Shown in pieces: positions 29,281 to 49,154 of a stretch of DNA of 64,000 nucleotides. The DNA comes from Cornus controversa. Its lineage: Eukaryota; Streptophyta; Magnoliopsida; Cornales; Cornaceae. Position 1 is the first letter of the stretch; every line of letters begins with the position of its first letter. The notes under the pieces were generated by a model. It searched no databases, was not told where the DNA came from, and worked only from the letters and a program-made list of their open reading frames with translations. The position numbers were made by a program, and so were the translations under genes. The stretch lies in NCBI GenBank assembly GCA_026545225.1, contig CM048845.1, positions 56,892,033 through 56,956,032 on the forward strand. Reading direction: 5' to 3'.

Positions 29281-29560
29281 CATCTCGATTGATCGAAGCA
29301 GAGATCTCGATCAATCGAGATTTTGATTGATCGAGATTTTGGTCTCGATTGATCGAAATAATGCAGAGAGTTTGCTAAGTCCAAAGTCCCGAGAGGTAGT
29401 ATTCTTCGATAGCACTTCGATAGGTCCTCGAGCAATCAAAATCTCGATTAATCGAAGTGAAATCTTGATTGATCGAAGTTGATCTCGATTGATCGAGGTA
29501 GGATTTCGATTGATCAAAATCTCGATTGATCAAGATGTGCATCTCGATCAATCGAGATTG
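29281..29560. repeat. Palindrome array upstream of B1 ORF3
   Basis: About ten copies of the CGATTGATCGA/TCGATCAATCGAGAT palindrome are spread over 280 bp, the same core as in the B LTR arrays. The homologous B2 array is 48758-49113. It lies directly upstream of a CACGTG box and TATTTAAA. Confidence 0.88.
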
Positions 29561-29572
29561 ACGCGATGCCTG

Positions 29573-29597
29573 CACGTGAGCTGAATACTTATTTAAA
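29573..29597 (+). promoter_or_regulatory. Putative internal promoter of B1 ORF3 (G-box and TATA box)
   Basis: CACGTG at 29573-29578 and TATTTAAA at 29590-29597 are matched in B2 (49130-49135, 49147-49154). A1 keeps CACGTG at 39788-39793 with a weaker TTAATATTCAAA. Both are followed by a C/T-rich leader (CCCTCTCATTTC). A plant G-box and TATA box here suggest a separate ORF3 transcript (inference). Confidence 0.5.
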
Positions 29598-29820
29598 CCA
29601 TTGGGCTTCCCTCTCATTTCAAAAGACCATTCGACTTCCTTCTCTTCTCTGAGCAATCCAAAGCTTCCCAAAGCACCGTCCCACACTTGATCTACCATTC
29701 CCGACCATCCTGCGCCGTTCGCCGTAGTCCGAGATCTCCGCGAGCACGCGCACGCTCATCTCTTTGCGGTTGCGAGTTGGGTCTTCATCTTTTTGTGCCG
29801 ATCATCATCTTCACCTTGAG

Positions 29821-30268
29821 GTAAGTGATGCATGGCTATATTTTGCTTACTTTCTCGCTATTTTTGTTAGTTTCTCGGCGTAATAAGCATAGACCGGTGA
29901 TGTTGGGTGGAATGGTGCATTCGCTATATTCATAATGGGATTTTGCGAGTTTTGGGGGTAGGACCGAATATATGGGTGAGAGATTTTGCATATTTTTTTT
30001 GTATCGAATGCTTCATAAGCGGTTTGCAACTGCGGCCCATTGTTCGGGTGCAGCCGCTTACACTGCTTCGTTGAGAGCGAGATGAGAGACATATTCATAT
30101 TCATATGGGTTATTTTTGCTTCTTAGTACACCTCATCAAGTCAATTCAAACGTATATTGGAATGCATGTGTCAGCACCATGGACTAGAACCTCCTTTTTA
30201 ATTTTTATTCTTAGTTTAGTATTCTCTCTATTTTCTTTTTATTTACGTAACTTTTGGAATAAGTGCAG
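29821..30268 (+). other. Putative intron in the B1 ORF3 leader
   Basis: It starts GAG|GTAAGTGATGCATGG and ends after a T-rich tract at GTGCAG|AC. B2 has the same donor and acceptor at 49377-49761, and A1 has AAG|GTAAGAG...GTCAG|G at 39983-40233. The acceptor falls just upstream of the ORF3 start. Confidence 0.55.
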
Positions 30269-30282
30269 ACTATTTTGGGTCG

Positions 30283-45469: not shown

Positions 45470-45740
45470 CTACGGTTTAATTGTCGCCATTGGAAGATTA
45501 AATCTGGTTTAATTTTAGGCTAGAAATTCTTTCATTCTTTTGGTATATATTTTGTTCTTATTGCTCAAACTTCTTGATTTTAGATATACCACATAGCGGG
45601 CGTCGAAAAGAATTGAAGTTGGAACCCTTTGTGAGTATAAAATCTAAAATTAGTGGTTTGAGTTCTTTCATTCTTTTTGTATATATTATTGTTTAATTTA
45701 GTTATTTTTGTGTATTGAGGTGTTGTTCTATAATTAATGC

Positions 45741-48584
45741 ATGCTAGGTAAACGGTCCTTGTCACTTCCTTTGCTTCCTTGTAATATTGAACATAAAAGA
45801 ACACTTAGACAACGTAGAGGAACCTCTAGGGACCCTATATTGCCTAGGACTGAAAACATGGATTCAAATGAAAGACAACCTCCCGAACTACCTCCTTTTA
45901 ATCATGAACAACCACCTCCACCTCCACCTCCTCAAGGAGAGTTGCTTATGGACTTTTACCTTCCGACTACATTTGAAGTACCTTCATGTATCCAATTTCC
46001 GGATGTAGCGGCAAATCAATTCGAAATAAAGTCCTCCACCATCAATCTTCTTAATAGCTTCCATGGTATCCCTAATGAGGATCCATACCGGCACTTAGAT
46101 TACTTCCTTTCTGTGTGTTCCACTATTCGTGTACCACACTTTACAGAGGATGATCTAAAGCTGCGTATGATCCCCTTCTCCCAAAAAGATAAAGCTAGAA
46201 GTTGGTTCAATTCCTTAGAACCTAACTCAATCCATTCTTGGGTGGAGATGCAAATAGAGTTCTTGAAAAAATACTTCCCAATGGGAAAGATGAGTGATAT
46301 TCGGCGAGTAATCACCGGATTCACCCAAATTGACCAAGAACAATTTCATGAGACGTGGGAGAGATTAAAAGACCTTCTTAAATCTTGTCCGCATCATGCT
46401 GTCCCAAAATGGCAGCTAGTGCAAAGCTTTTATGATGGGGTGAGTGAGCAACATAGACAAATGATAGACTCCGCGTGTGAGGGAGGATACCTTTTGAAAA
46501 GCCCTGATGAGGCATGGAAACTTTTTCAAACCCTAAGCAACAATTCAGCTCAACGCTCCTCCACTAGGAAAGGGAAGGCCACCCAACCTTGTAGAGGAGT
46601 GCATGAAATTTCACGGGTAGATGAGGTTGCCATGCAAGTAGAAGCCCTATCCTGAAAAATGGATTTAACAATGAAAAATGGTCTGCCTACTCCAAGCCAA
46701 CCTATTCAAAATCAGGAAGGTTGTTCATTTTGCTATAGTACTTCATATTTCGTGCGAGATTGTCCTATTGCCGGGCAATCTCCCGATTATGCTCAAGAGC
46801 AAGTGAATGCCTTGTACTCTAAACAAATGAATGATCCATATTCGAACACGTACAATCCTAGTTACAAGAACCATCCGGCTTTTTCATGGAAACCTCAAGA
46901 ATCAAGTCCCTCTTTTCAAGGGCAAAATTCTTTTAATTCTCAATCTCAACAGCCTCATTATAGGCCAAATCCTCAACCTTACCATCAAAGATCCAATTAC
47001 CAACAACCACCACCTCCTCCGAGAAGCCAAGGCTTTGAAAAAAGAGTGATAAGCAATCTTGAGGCTAATACCCGATTATTGCAAACTCATTCTCAATCAA
47101 TCTCTAAGATGGAAGCGAATGCTCAATCTATGGCTAGGTTAGAAGCTCAAATCGGGCAACTAGCTAATGCCTTAAATAGAAGGGAGGAAGGTAAGTTGCC
47201 GAGTCAACCGGTGGCAAATCCTAAGGGTGTTCATATGATTGAGGATCCATCATCTTCAACTTGTAATGCTCCTCCGGAGCAAGTTCAATCAATCACCACC
47301 TTAAGGAGTGGTAAAATCATTAATTCCAGGGTGGGAGAGGAAGAGAAGAAAGAATTCCAAGAGCAACCCAAAAATCCAAAAGAATCCTAATTAAATCCAA
47401 AATTGTTTCCGTTGAATCCAAATTTGCATAACATCCCATTAAATCCAAAAGGAAAGGCAAGTGAAGTTGTGCCGTCATCAATTCCAATTCTTGACACTTC
47501 TTTTGAGTCTCCGGTTCCTTTTCCTCAAAGATTGAAGGAACCTTCTCATTTTGGGAAGCAAGGAGAGAAAATCCAAGATATGATGGAGATCTTCAAACAA
47601 GTAAAGATCAATCTCCCTCTCCTTGATGCTATTCGACAAATTTCCTCCTATGCTAAATTCTTAAAGGACTTGTGCACTCAAAAGCACAAATCTAGGAATA
47701 ATGTTCCTAAGAAAGTCCTCTTAACTGAGCATATAAGCTCCATTTTCCAACACCAAGCCCCTCCTAAATTCAAAGATCCGGGTGCTCCGACCATTTCGTG
47801 CACCATCAGAAATCAATCTTTTGAAAAGGCACTTCTTGATTTAGGGGCTAGTGTCAATTTGCTTCCATTCTCAGTTTACCAACAGCTAGGTTTGGGGGAA
47901 CTCAAGCATACCACGGTTGTGTTGCAACTCGCCGACCGCTCGGTGAAGCAACCACGTGGCATAATTGAGGATGTAATCATTCAAGTGGACAAATTCTATT
48001 TTCCGGTGGACTTCATAGTCCTTGACACAGAACCGGTCCAAAATCCAAATCAACATATTCCTATCATTCTAGGTCATCCATTCTTGGCCACGGCAAACGC
48101 TTGCGTTAATTACCGTACCGGAGTAATGGACATCTCTTTCGGGAATATGAAAGTCCGCTTAAACATCTTCAATGCTTTCCACCACTCATCCGAAGACGAA
48201 AGTGAGTGCTTTTGTGTCGATGTTGTGGAAGACCTTGTTCAAGAAGCACTTCCTTCTATTCTTTCCAAGGATCCTCTAGAGGCATGCCTAAATCATTTCA
48301 ACTTTGATGATTTTGACGTTAAGCAATCTATTTGTGAAGTCAACTCAATGCTCGATATCAATACTGTCATGGATGTGCCTAAATGGAGAATTCCGAGAGA
48401 ACCCTTTCCTCCATTTTTGGTTAATTCCGTCGCTCCCCACGGAGCGGTGGAATTAAAGGACTTGAAAGATGGCTTGTTGTTCAAAGTAAACGGGCAGCGC
48501 TTAAAAGTATGCGTGGATGACCAAGTTACCACCGAATACGTGGATGTCGTCACTTTGACGGATCCCGTATATTTTGACTCGTGA
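45741..48584 (+). pseudogene. B2 gag-protease fused to the integrase tail
   Basis: One frame runs from ATG 45741 to the stop at 48582, broken only by TGA at 46653 and TAA at 47388 and 47394, where B1 has CAA codons. Gag has the capsid blocks FEIKSSTINLLNSFHG and WFNSLEPNSIHSWVEM. The zinc knuckle CSFCYSTSYFVRDC (46722-46763) has Tyr (46746-46748) in place of the zinc-binding His of B1. The protease site is LLDLGASVNLLP (about 47832). At about 48406-48420 the frame passes from PKWRIPREPFPP to FLVNSVAPHGAVELKDLKDG, skipping the 2.8 kb that is 26149-28938 in B1. Confidence 0.92.
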
Positions 48585-48757
48585 GCCGATCCGAACGTCA
48601 TGCCATAGACGTGTAAGGTGGCGTAGCCATGGTAGCTATCATGCTTCCATGATGTCCCTTTCATCCAACTTAAAGTTTGTATCTAAGCAATGTAATATCT
48701 AATTCCCAAAAATCCAAGTCCCTGAAGCATGACTCAAGCTGACTATTTTTGAGCATT

Positions 48758-49113
48758 TTGATTGATCGAAGCCAGGATCTCGATCAATCGAGATTTCAAT
48801 TGATCGAGATTTTAGTCTCGTTGATCAAAAAATTGCAGAGAATTGCAAATCCAAAAGTCCCGAGAGGTGGTATTCTTCGATAGCATTTCGATTGGTCTTC
48901 GATCGATCAAAAATTTCGATTAATCGAAGAGGAATTTCGATTGAACAAAATAAATTTTTGATTGATCGAATTAAAAGTCTCGATTCACCAAAGAAAGTCT
49001 CGATTAATCGAAGGAGAGATTTCGATCGATCGAAGGTAATCTCGATTGATCGAAGTTGGATTTTGATTAATCGAAATCTCAATCAATCGAGATGCACATC
49101 TCAATCAATCGAG
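48758..49113. repeat. Palindrome array upstream of B2 ORF3
   Basis: More than ten palindromes with TCGATTGATCGA, TCGATCGATCGA, TCGATTAATCGA or TCAATCAATCGA cores lie over 355 bp, more varied than in the LTR. It is homologous to 29281-29560 in B1. Confidence 0.88.
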
Positions 49114-49129
49114 ATACACGCGATGCCTG

Positions 49130-49154
49130 CACGTGACCCGAAATCTTATTTAAA
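49130..49154 (+). promoter_or_regulatory. Putative internal promoter of B2 ORF3 (G-box and TATA box)
   Basis: CACGTG (49130-49135) and TATTTAAA (49147-49154) lie right after the palindrome array and about 620 bp before the ORF3 ATG. The spacing equals that in B1. A start site near 49180 (CCCTCTCATTTC) is an inference. Confidence 0.5.

Follow-up and report, generated by a model that had tools for sequence, protein, structure and literature searches.

Arrays of a spaced CGAT dyad in the long terminal repeats and ahead of ORF3 of Athila-like retrotransposons from Cornus controversa are candidate promoter elements

The 64,000-nucleotide stretch of Cornus controversa contig CM048845.1 analysed here (positions 56,892,033 to 56,956,032; hereafter the window) contains nested long terminal repeat (LTR) retrotransposons, the kinds of which point to a plant source. 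The Athila-like element A1 carries element B1 (21795-36116) in its 5' LTR and element B2 (44016-54233) in its 3' LTR, and a solo B-type LTR (32055-33470) is nested within B1. All comparisons are drawn from this single window, which holds two families bearing open reading frame (ORF) 3: A1 on its own, and B, formed by B1 and B2. Both families have arrays of a short palindromic unit in the LTR and again just 5' of ORF3. The arrays, promoter-like blocks, LTR TATA-like run and ORF3 sequences described below are all given on the forward strand.

The unit of the arrays is TCGAT-nn-ATCGA. The original prediction had called the B unit a palindrome, which holds for the paired half-sites, but the unit as a whole is imperfect, with two variable bases between them. 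Exact TCGATnnATCGA occurs in 38 copies, all of which belong to arrays of A1, B1, B2 or the solo LTR, either in an LTR or ahead of ORF3. The shorter form CGATnnATCG is present in 42 copies in the 64 kb as against 0.25 expected, and 0 of 100 shuffled sequences reached 42. Each of the two A1 LTRs contributes one of these copies, and a third family, C, contributes two. Every copy belongs to an array within an LTR, within an LTR-like repeat or just 5' of ORF3, and a scan of the whole window found no exact CGATnnATCG outside the arrays. When all palindromes with arms of 5 bp and spacers of 0-7 bp were scanned without preselection, TCGAT-N2-ATCGA was the most clustered palindrome not composed of A/T only (6 per 400 bp). 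In the 20 simulated sequences that served as a control, the maximum per 400 bp was 3 for words containing G or C and 4 for A/T-only words; A/T runs in the real sequence reach 35.

The array census, in which up to two mismatches were allowed and eight overlapping linker palindromes (centre GATC or AATC) were removed by rule, contains 67 units in ten arrays. The array of the B1 5' LTR (21960-22074) is composed of six units of TCGATnnATCGA with spacings of 22, 16, 21, 16 and 21 bp. Six units are also present in the solo LTR (32241-32355), the B2 5' LTR (44202-44316) and the B2 3' LTR (52990-53104), and five were found in the B1 3' LTR (34907-35000), where a 21-bp alignment gap covers part of units 5 and 6. 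The pre-ORF3 arrays of family B are divided into two blocks each, with 11 units in B1 (29281-29560) and 14 units in B2 (48755-49113). The A1 LTR has two units only, none exact over 12 bp; the pair in the 5' LTR (21145-21185) consists of TCGATGCATCAA and TCGATGCATCGC at a spacing of 22 bp, and the decayed pair in the 3' LTR (43417-43457) has the same spacing. The A1 pre-ORF3 array (39555-39782) contains nine units, seven of them with the centre GC. The motif census and the sequence confirm arrays at all seven places listed in the original prediction, but the list was incomplete, as five more exist (32241-32355, 34907-35000, 43417-43457, 9839-10021 and 57113-57312).

The half-sites of A1 and B are identical and the two-base centre alone differs, so only two bases changed between the families. 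The centre GC is present in 10 of 13 A1 units and in 0 of 54 B units, the centres of which are mostly TG or CA, with TA, CG, GA and TC also occurring. The earlier description of a different palindrome in A1 was overstated, and the idea that the two families bear different palindromes was rejected. Similarly, the proposal that the LTR and pre-ORF3 sites share a core within each family applies to the centre dinucleotide, but not to the half-sites, which are common to both families.

The distances between neighbouring units are quantised. Among the 57 distances in the ten arrays, 19 are 16-17 bp and 34 are 20-22 bp, the remaining four being 11, 64, 83 and 103 bp, and the preference for these lengths is seen in both families and both places. 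The spacing was tested with one array per family and place, excluding the distances of 11, 64, 83 and 103 bp and the unit at 39680; family C provided one of the 26 tested distances, and its 18- and 23-bp distances were not among them. All 26 belong to the set 16, 17, 20, 21 and 22 bp, and 0 of 200000 runs drawn uniformly from 12-26 bp matched this with their own best five lengths. Such arrays could have arisen without function if the palindromes spread by slippage and the match between the LTR and pre-ORF3 sites resulted from sequence copying inside the element. The linkers bear on this explanation from both sides. In the comparison, which was limited to ten 10-bp linkers out of 26, linkers are alike within a family (likeness 0.45 in B and 0.57 in A1, against 0.26-0.27 for shuffled sequences), and the LTR and pre-ORF3 pairs of A1 have the linker frame AAGTnnCYACTT in common. 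The A1 linkers also resemble the single C linker above chance (0.60), and there is no excess likeness between B and C (0.32 against 0.29 shuffled). The linkers of A1 and B are unrelated (0.27 against 0.24 shuffled, P 0.17) despite their equal spacing, and duplication or common descent does not account for this agreement. Since the A1 and B arrays are, in addition, confined to the LTR or pre-ORF3 places, with no exact CGATnnATCG elsewhere in these elements, and their half-sites are conserved relative to the linkers, we consider an origin without function very unlikely.

The conservation of the half-sites was evaluated among the five B LTR copies and, for the pre-ORF3 arrays, between B1 and B2, with CpG columns counted apart. 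Outside CpG, the columns varying among the LTR copies were 0 of 30 in half-sites, 5 of 35 in linkers, 1 of 8 in centres and 222 of 1217 in the remaining LTR sequence (Fisher P for half-sites 0.006 against this remainder and 0.057 against linkers). In the pre-ORF3 comparison, 3 of 64 half-site columns, 25 of 136 linker columns and 3 of 16 centre columns varied, as did 118 of 728 elsewhere (P 0.008 against linkers and 0.011 against elsewhere). When the two data sets were pooled, 3 of 94 half-site columns and 30 of 171 linker columns varied (P 0.0004). The LTR copies are related and the tests are therefore not independent, so the P values serve as guides. Outside CpG, the centre varies about as much as the background.

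The CpG columns behave differently from the remainder of the half-sites: 4 of 20 half-site columns varied in the LTR copies (2 of 2 in centres, 14 of 32 elsewhere) and 7 of 36 in the pre-ORF3 arrays (0 of 6 in linkers, 39 of 132 elsewhere). The two LTRs of B2 disagree at the centre of unit 4 (CA against CG), and the TG, CA and TA centres of family B may be deamination products of CG rather than a recognised core. Against this explanation, the outer CpGs are mostly retained, and the GC of A1 is not accounted for. The two LTRs of B2 differ by four substitutions in 1430 aligned sites plus one gap. Since each of the four is a CpG transition and two are inside the array, the arrays were probably methylated after insertion.

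The pre-ORF3 array is followed by a promoter-like block, the order of which is common to A1, B1 and B2: array, CACGTG, a TATA-like box (TATTYAAA) and the identical 12-mer CCCTCTCATTTC. The block spans 29573-29620 in B1 (CACGTG at 29573, TATTTAAA at 29590, 12-mer at 29609), 49130-49177 in B2 (CACGTG at 49130, TATTTAAA at 49147, 12-mer at 49166) and 39788-39846 in A1 (CACGTG at 39788, TATTCAAA at 39815, 12-mer at 39835). The TATA-like box is positioned 30-34 bp 3' of the array and the 12-mer 19-20 bp beyond it. The window contains three copies of the 12-mer, all in these blocks, and nine of CACGTG. The first donor-like GTAAG past the 12-mer is located at 29821 in B1, 49377 in B2 and 39983 in A1, which corresponds to distances of 212, 211 and 148 bp, respectively. 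The arrangement of these motifs suggests that the block is a likely internal promoter for ORF3, and the stretch ahead of ORF3 could be a 5' leader intron. In the LTR, a TATA-like run (22200-22230 in B1) begins 126 bp 3' of the array; the distance is 139 bp in the B2 5' LTR.

ORF3 lies between pol and the 3' LTR. In B2 (49776-50999) it encodes 407 residues with a weak match to Transposase_32 (PF20167, E 9.1e-6, 26.1 bits; curated cut-off 45), and its homologues in A1 and B1 were detected by tblastn. The B1 copy (30283-31479) is 83% identical to that of B2 over 399 residues and is broken, the longest ORF listed being 156 residues, and A1 has a relic in two frames (40294-41403; E 7e-30 for 40584-40994 and 2.5e-14). 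Mismatches between the B1 and B2 copies are distributed over codon positions 1, 2 and 3 as 45, 28 and 114 of 406 each, a pattern which indicates that ORF3 was under purifying selection. The third-position excess is weaker in gag-side pieces (18, 15 and 31 of 305; 19, 13 and 33 of 244; 16, 19 and 25 of 249). The B2 product contains an acidic stretch in which 16 of 35 residues are Asp or Glu, the basic clusters RSRK, RRRR and KRMR, and a C-terminal stretch with a sub-threshold match to HisKA_3 (E 0.0054), which may form a helical dimer. A minus-strand ORF of 186 codons inside B2 ORF3 (50031-50591) has no Pfam match at E 0.01.

The assignment of the elements to Ty3/gypsy is based on B1, in which Pfam matches to gag (PF03732, 23476-24072), RNase H (PF17919, 27051-27539) and integrase (PF17921/PF00665, 27600-28502) follow each other in the gypsy order, with RNase H before integrase. 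For the reverse transcriptase (RT) domain itself, no Pfam match was obtained from the B1 ORFs scanned. A1 and B2 can be assigned to the Athila type through their similarity to B1. The blastn match of B2 to B1 ends at the B1 equivalent of 26152 and restarts at 28937, and that of A1 ends at the equivalent of 25887, 283 bp ahead of the array; most or all of the RT-integrase region was therefore lost in both. Sequence of the gag-protease region is retained in A1 and B2 according to blastn, with Pfam gag and protease matches in addition for B2. Thus A1 (36117-43149) and B2 (44016-54233) have mostly lost RT-integrase and retain the gag region together with ORF3 and both arrays, which might mean that ORF3 and the arrays matter to non-autonomous copies as well.

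Family C provides a comparison with a further element. Its gag (12334), RT (15667) and integrase zinc-binding (16647) domains are arranged in an order on the strength of which it is taken to be one Ty3/gypsy-type element. The LTR-like repeat of this family is located at approximately 8138-10320 and at 17942-18323, with a further copy at 56359-57614. A decayed array of TTACGATnnATCGTAA at 57113-57312 has spacings of 22, 18, 22, (59), 23, 18 and 22 bp, and a second, more decayed copy at 9839-10021 has spacings of 22, 18, 22, (60), 23 and 22 bp. The units were found with up to 4 mismatches in 14 positions, a level which yields 87 matches in the whole window, and it is therefore the alignment of the two copies that supports them. 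The last ORF of family C with at least 90 codons ends at 17897, 44 bp ahead of the repeat at 17942. A tblastn search of the window with B2 ORF3 detected no ORF3 relative in family C: the best E outside A1, B1 and B2 was at least 6.9, and two short hits with E of 5.9 and 6.3 are in A1 and B1.

The product of ORF3 itself might bind the LTR and its own promoter, acting as a nuclear dimeric transactivator or anti-silencer in a positive feedback loop, like Tas of foamy viruses or VANC of VANDAL transposons. The array and promoter-like block of ORF3, its purifying selection, the basic clusters and acidic stretch of the protein, the C-terminal stretch that may dimerise, and the retention of ORF3 with both arrays in A1 and B2 after the loss of most of RT-integrase are all in line with such a role, as is the nuclear location predicted for the product of a Transposase_32-matching 3' ORF of sunflower Athila, reported in a passage of PMC11728184. 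A search of PDB sequences with ORF3, however, yielded one match, at E 0.47, and family C has the core and a similar spacing with no ORF3 relative found there. Furthermore, four Sireviruses that lack env still bear the LTR arrays, according to the relevant passages of PMC2829016, which speaks for a host factor. We therefore consider control by the ORF3 product doubtful. The original prediction had left the choice between a host factor and the ORF3 product open; the evidence from family C makes a host protein the more likely binder, with the ORF3 product a possible but not favoured one.

The arrays might instead act through RNA, as long imperfect hairpins of the genomic transcript that are diced to small RNAs and flag the element for silencing, a role proposed for the LTR palindromes of maize Sireviruses. 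When 12 array stretches were folded, 10 had z values of -4.7 to -10.4, the exceptions being the A1 3' LTR pair (z -2.7) and the first block of the B2 pre-ORF3 array (z -1.9). Windows of 110 nt below -40 kcal/mol form 23 stretches, of which 9 overlap arrays, with the lowest array value at -64; 8 of the 10 arrays have such a window, and the two A1 LTR pairs are without one. The most stable predicted 110-nt fold in the window (-75.8 kcal/mol) is in an AT-rich stretch at 61161-61320. In the B LTRs, almost every unit has flanks that pair (26, 27 and 29 of 29 units at flank positions 1-3), and Sirevirus palindromes are described as small-RNA hotspots in passages of PMC5311732 and PMC10760457. Strong folding would, however, be expected of any row of repeated palindromes, and flanks of the pre-ORF3 units pair in just 15, 12 and 16 of 25 units. 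The predicted fold differs between LTR copies, in which units 1-4, 2-3 and 5-6 pair in B1 and units 1-6, 2-5 and 3-4 in the B2 5' LTR. The centre of unit 6 is CA in the solo LTR and TG in B1, and the change is uncompensated, since unit 5, the predicted partner of unit 6, has a CA centre in each case. B2 unit 4 was dropped as a second uncompensated change, its predicted partner differing between the two LTR folds. Hairpins need neither conserved half-sites with a variable centre nor fixed spacing, and give no explanation of why the element keeps a silencing target. We regard them as unlikely to be the primary role of the arrays; in our reading DNA binding comes first and the hairpins may be a cost, as has been argued for Copia/Sirevirus elements (passages of PMC10760457).

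A further proposal assigns the arrays to the dimerisation or packaging of genomic RNA, in which the palindromes could form kissing contacts, both arrays being within that RNA. Because the B LTR array precedes the TATA-like run, it would end up in the 3'-terminal part of the genomic RNA, in contrast to dimer signals of the 5' leader, and a dimerisation role is extremely improbable.

We propose, with a probability of about 60%, that the arrays are cis-regulatory dyads recognised as double-stranded DNA by a dimeric DNA-binding protein that acts on the LTR and ORF3 promoters. The unit, a spaced dyad of two CGAT half-sites around two variable bases, would suit a dimeric protein, and the distance between units, about 1.5 or 2 turns of the helix, suggests that binding is cooperative or multimeric. 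The B LTR array, 5' of the TATA-like run, would act on the genomic transcript, and the second array, 30-34 bp 5' of the TATA-like box, would serve the putative internal promoter of an ORF3 mRNA with a 5' leader intron. With an array at both promoters, the same factor would act on both transcripts. The idea of promoter elements bound by a factor, put forward in the original prediction, is thus supported indirectly by the half-site conservation, the quantised spacing and the shared promoter-like block.

Several observations weigh against this proposal. The array of family C is approximately 1.35 kb downstream of a TATA-like box (at about 8490, located by eye) and not upstream, so the core and a similar spacing are shared with this family and the position is not. 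In family B, in which the LTR TATA was examined, the LTR array is 126-139 bp rather than about 30 bp ahead of it. Linkers resemble each other within both B and A1, and those of A1 resemble the C linker tested, so the regularity of the spacing may owe something to duplication or common descent. The conservation tests were performed on related copies, the difference between half-sites and linkers in the LTR is not significant, and the CpG columns of the half-sites do vary. The arrays also form very stable predicted RNA hairpins, which would explain the complementarity of the B LTR flanks beyond the half-sites as well.

The 5' LTR of B1 is without its first 19 bp, the junction at 21795 being TGCAT, common to the B LTR and the surrounding A-type LTR, and the target duplication of B2 is TTCAC. 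A solo LTR at 12739-13917, related to the A1 LTR (82-83% in the 3' part), has no exact CGATnnATCG. It contains three GNATATNC words (13010, 13025 and 13049) just 5' of TATAAAAGG; GNATATNC, which we take to be the binding site of PHR1, occurs 14 times in the window. The sequence TGGCGCCGTTGCCGGGGA follows the 5' LTRs of B1 (23192) and B2 (45452), with a diverged form in A1 near 36620, and may pair with tRNA-Asp as the primer binding site. The analogy is with the tRNA-Asp-type primer sites of Calypso and Diaspora, described in a passage of PMC1142308.

Searches outside the window returned no relatives of the system. ORF3 had none in viral contigs and none at E 0.001 among the 7993 best word-sharing protein candidates; the B1 integrase piece and the 21-mer of the primer site had none in viral contigs, and the B2 LTR had none in plasmids. 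The array pattern was matched in 10 viral contigs and 23 contigs titled bacterial, many of them simple tandem repeats and others with few motif copies 18-24 bp apart, and none was taken as a relative. Two of these contigs were examined closer, L002 by its sequence and ORFs and L007 by its ORFs. L002, an IMG/VR contig, has, within a predicted ORF, three TCGATGCATCGA words at 2686-2742 spaced by 23 and 22 bp, and is probably not from a plant, since its ORFs are dense on both strands. In the open-licence literature searched, we found no report of the two-place palindrome layout in Athila, and matches to the motif letters were unrelated by title and abstract. The leading paper on palindromes and LTRs in Athila deals with insertion targets, and for palindromic regulation in gypsy elements the Sirevirus study ranked first.

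The closest published counterpart is the system of palindromic repeated motifs (RMs) of Sireviruses, which passages of Bousios et al. 2010 (PMC2829016) place ahead of the TATA box in the LTR and, a second time, ahead of ENV. At least 8 RMs per element were present in 13 elements, 77 of 79 linker copies were before ENV, each element had one consensus, and classic Ty1/copia elements were without RMs. The same passages take this layout to favour an internal ENV promoter, which could not be conclusively identified. Family B resembles these elements in having palindromic units in the LTR before the TATA and before the 3' gene, and A1 has both places. In contrast to the Ty1/copia Sireviruses, B1 has the RNase H before the integrase, as in Ty3/gypsy, and the core is CGAT-nn-ATCG, whereas that of the Sireviruses is CGG-CCG, except in Tnd-1 (ACAATCGATTGT). 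The dyad with a variable centre, the spacing rule and the promoter-like block are further differences, the Sirevirus passages giving no spacing rule. By analogy, the Athila-type arrays appear to work like the RM system, of which they are not a member. The Sirevirus-type layout has thus already been described in Ty1/copia, and the sequences analysed here represent a Ty3/gypsy variant of the Athila type.

The VANC motifs of VANDAL transposons are likewise short family-specific motifs, repeated in non-coding parts of plant transposons and differing between related families (passages of PMC5735166 and PMC10398659). VANDALs are not LTR retrotransposons, however, the VANC21 motif YAGTATTAY is not palindromic, and for VANC binding has been shown. 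Foamy viruses have an LTR and an internal promoter before the 3' genes, with one factor, Tas, acting on both, as is predicted here, but Tas is the product of the internal promoter, which here is only a rival explanation (passages of PMC4929722). Gene23 of maize Grande is an accessory gene between pol and the 3' LTR with its own promoter and a nuclear product; unlike ORF3 it is antisense, and the passages on it in PMC7264820 do not mention palindrome arrays. In sunflower Athila, an extra ORF between pol and the 3' LTR has similarity to Transposase_32 (passages of PMC11728184). The expression and role of the 3' gene in env-like plant retrotransposons are described as unproven in passages of PMC2829016 and PMC7264820.

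Separate LTR families of one genome may share a CGATnnATCG grammar, with spacings of approximately 16-18 and 20-23 bp, and one multimeric reader, in which the Athila-type ORF3 takes part through a self-reinforcing loop between the LTR and ORF3 promoters that acts against silencing. This extension is speculative and we think it unlikely to hold. To our knowledge, no self-reinforcing loop between an LTR and the promoter of a 3' gene is known in plant Ty3/gypsy elements. The promoter-like block that shares the array of the LTR offers a direct and cheap handle on the expression of the 3' gene, and the spacing rule provides a search pattern for other genomes. With the Sirevirus-type layout in a gypsy element, two superfamilies would have it, which would point to a real advantage in the joint switching of the two transcripts.

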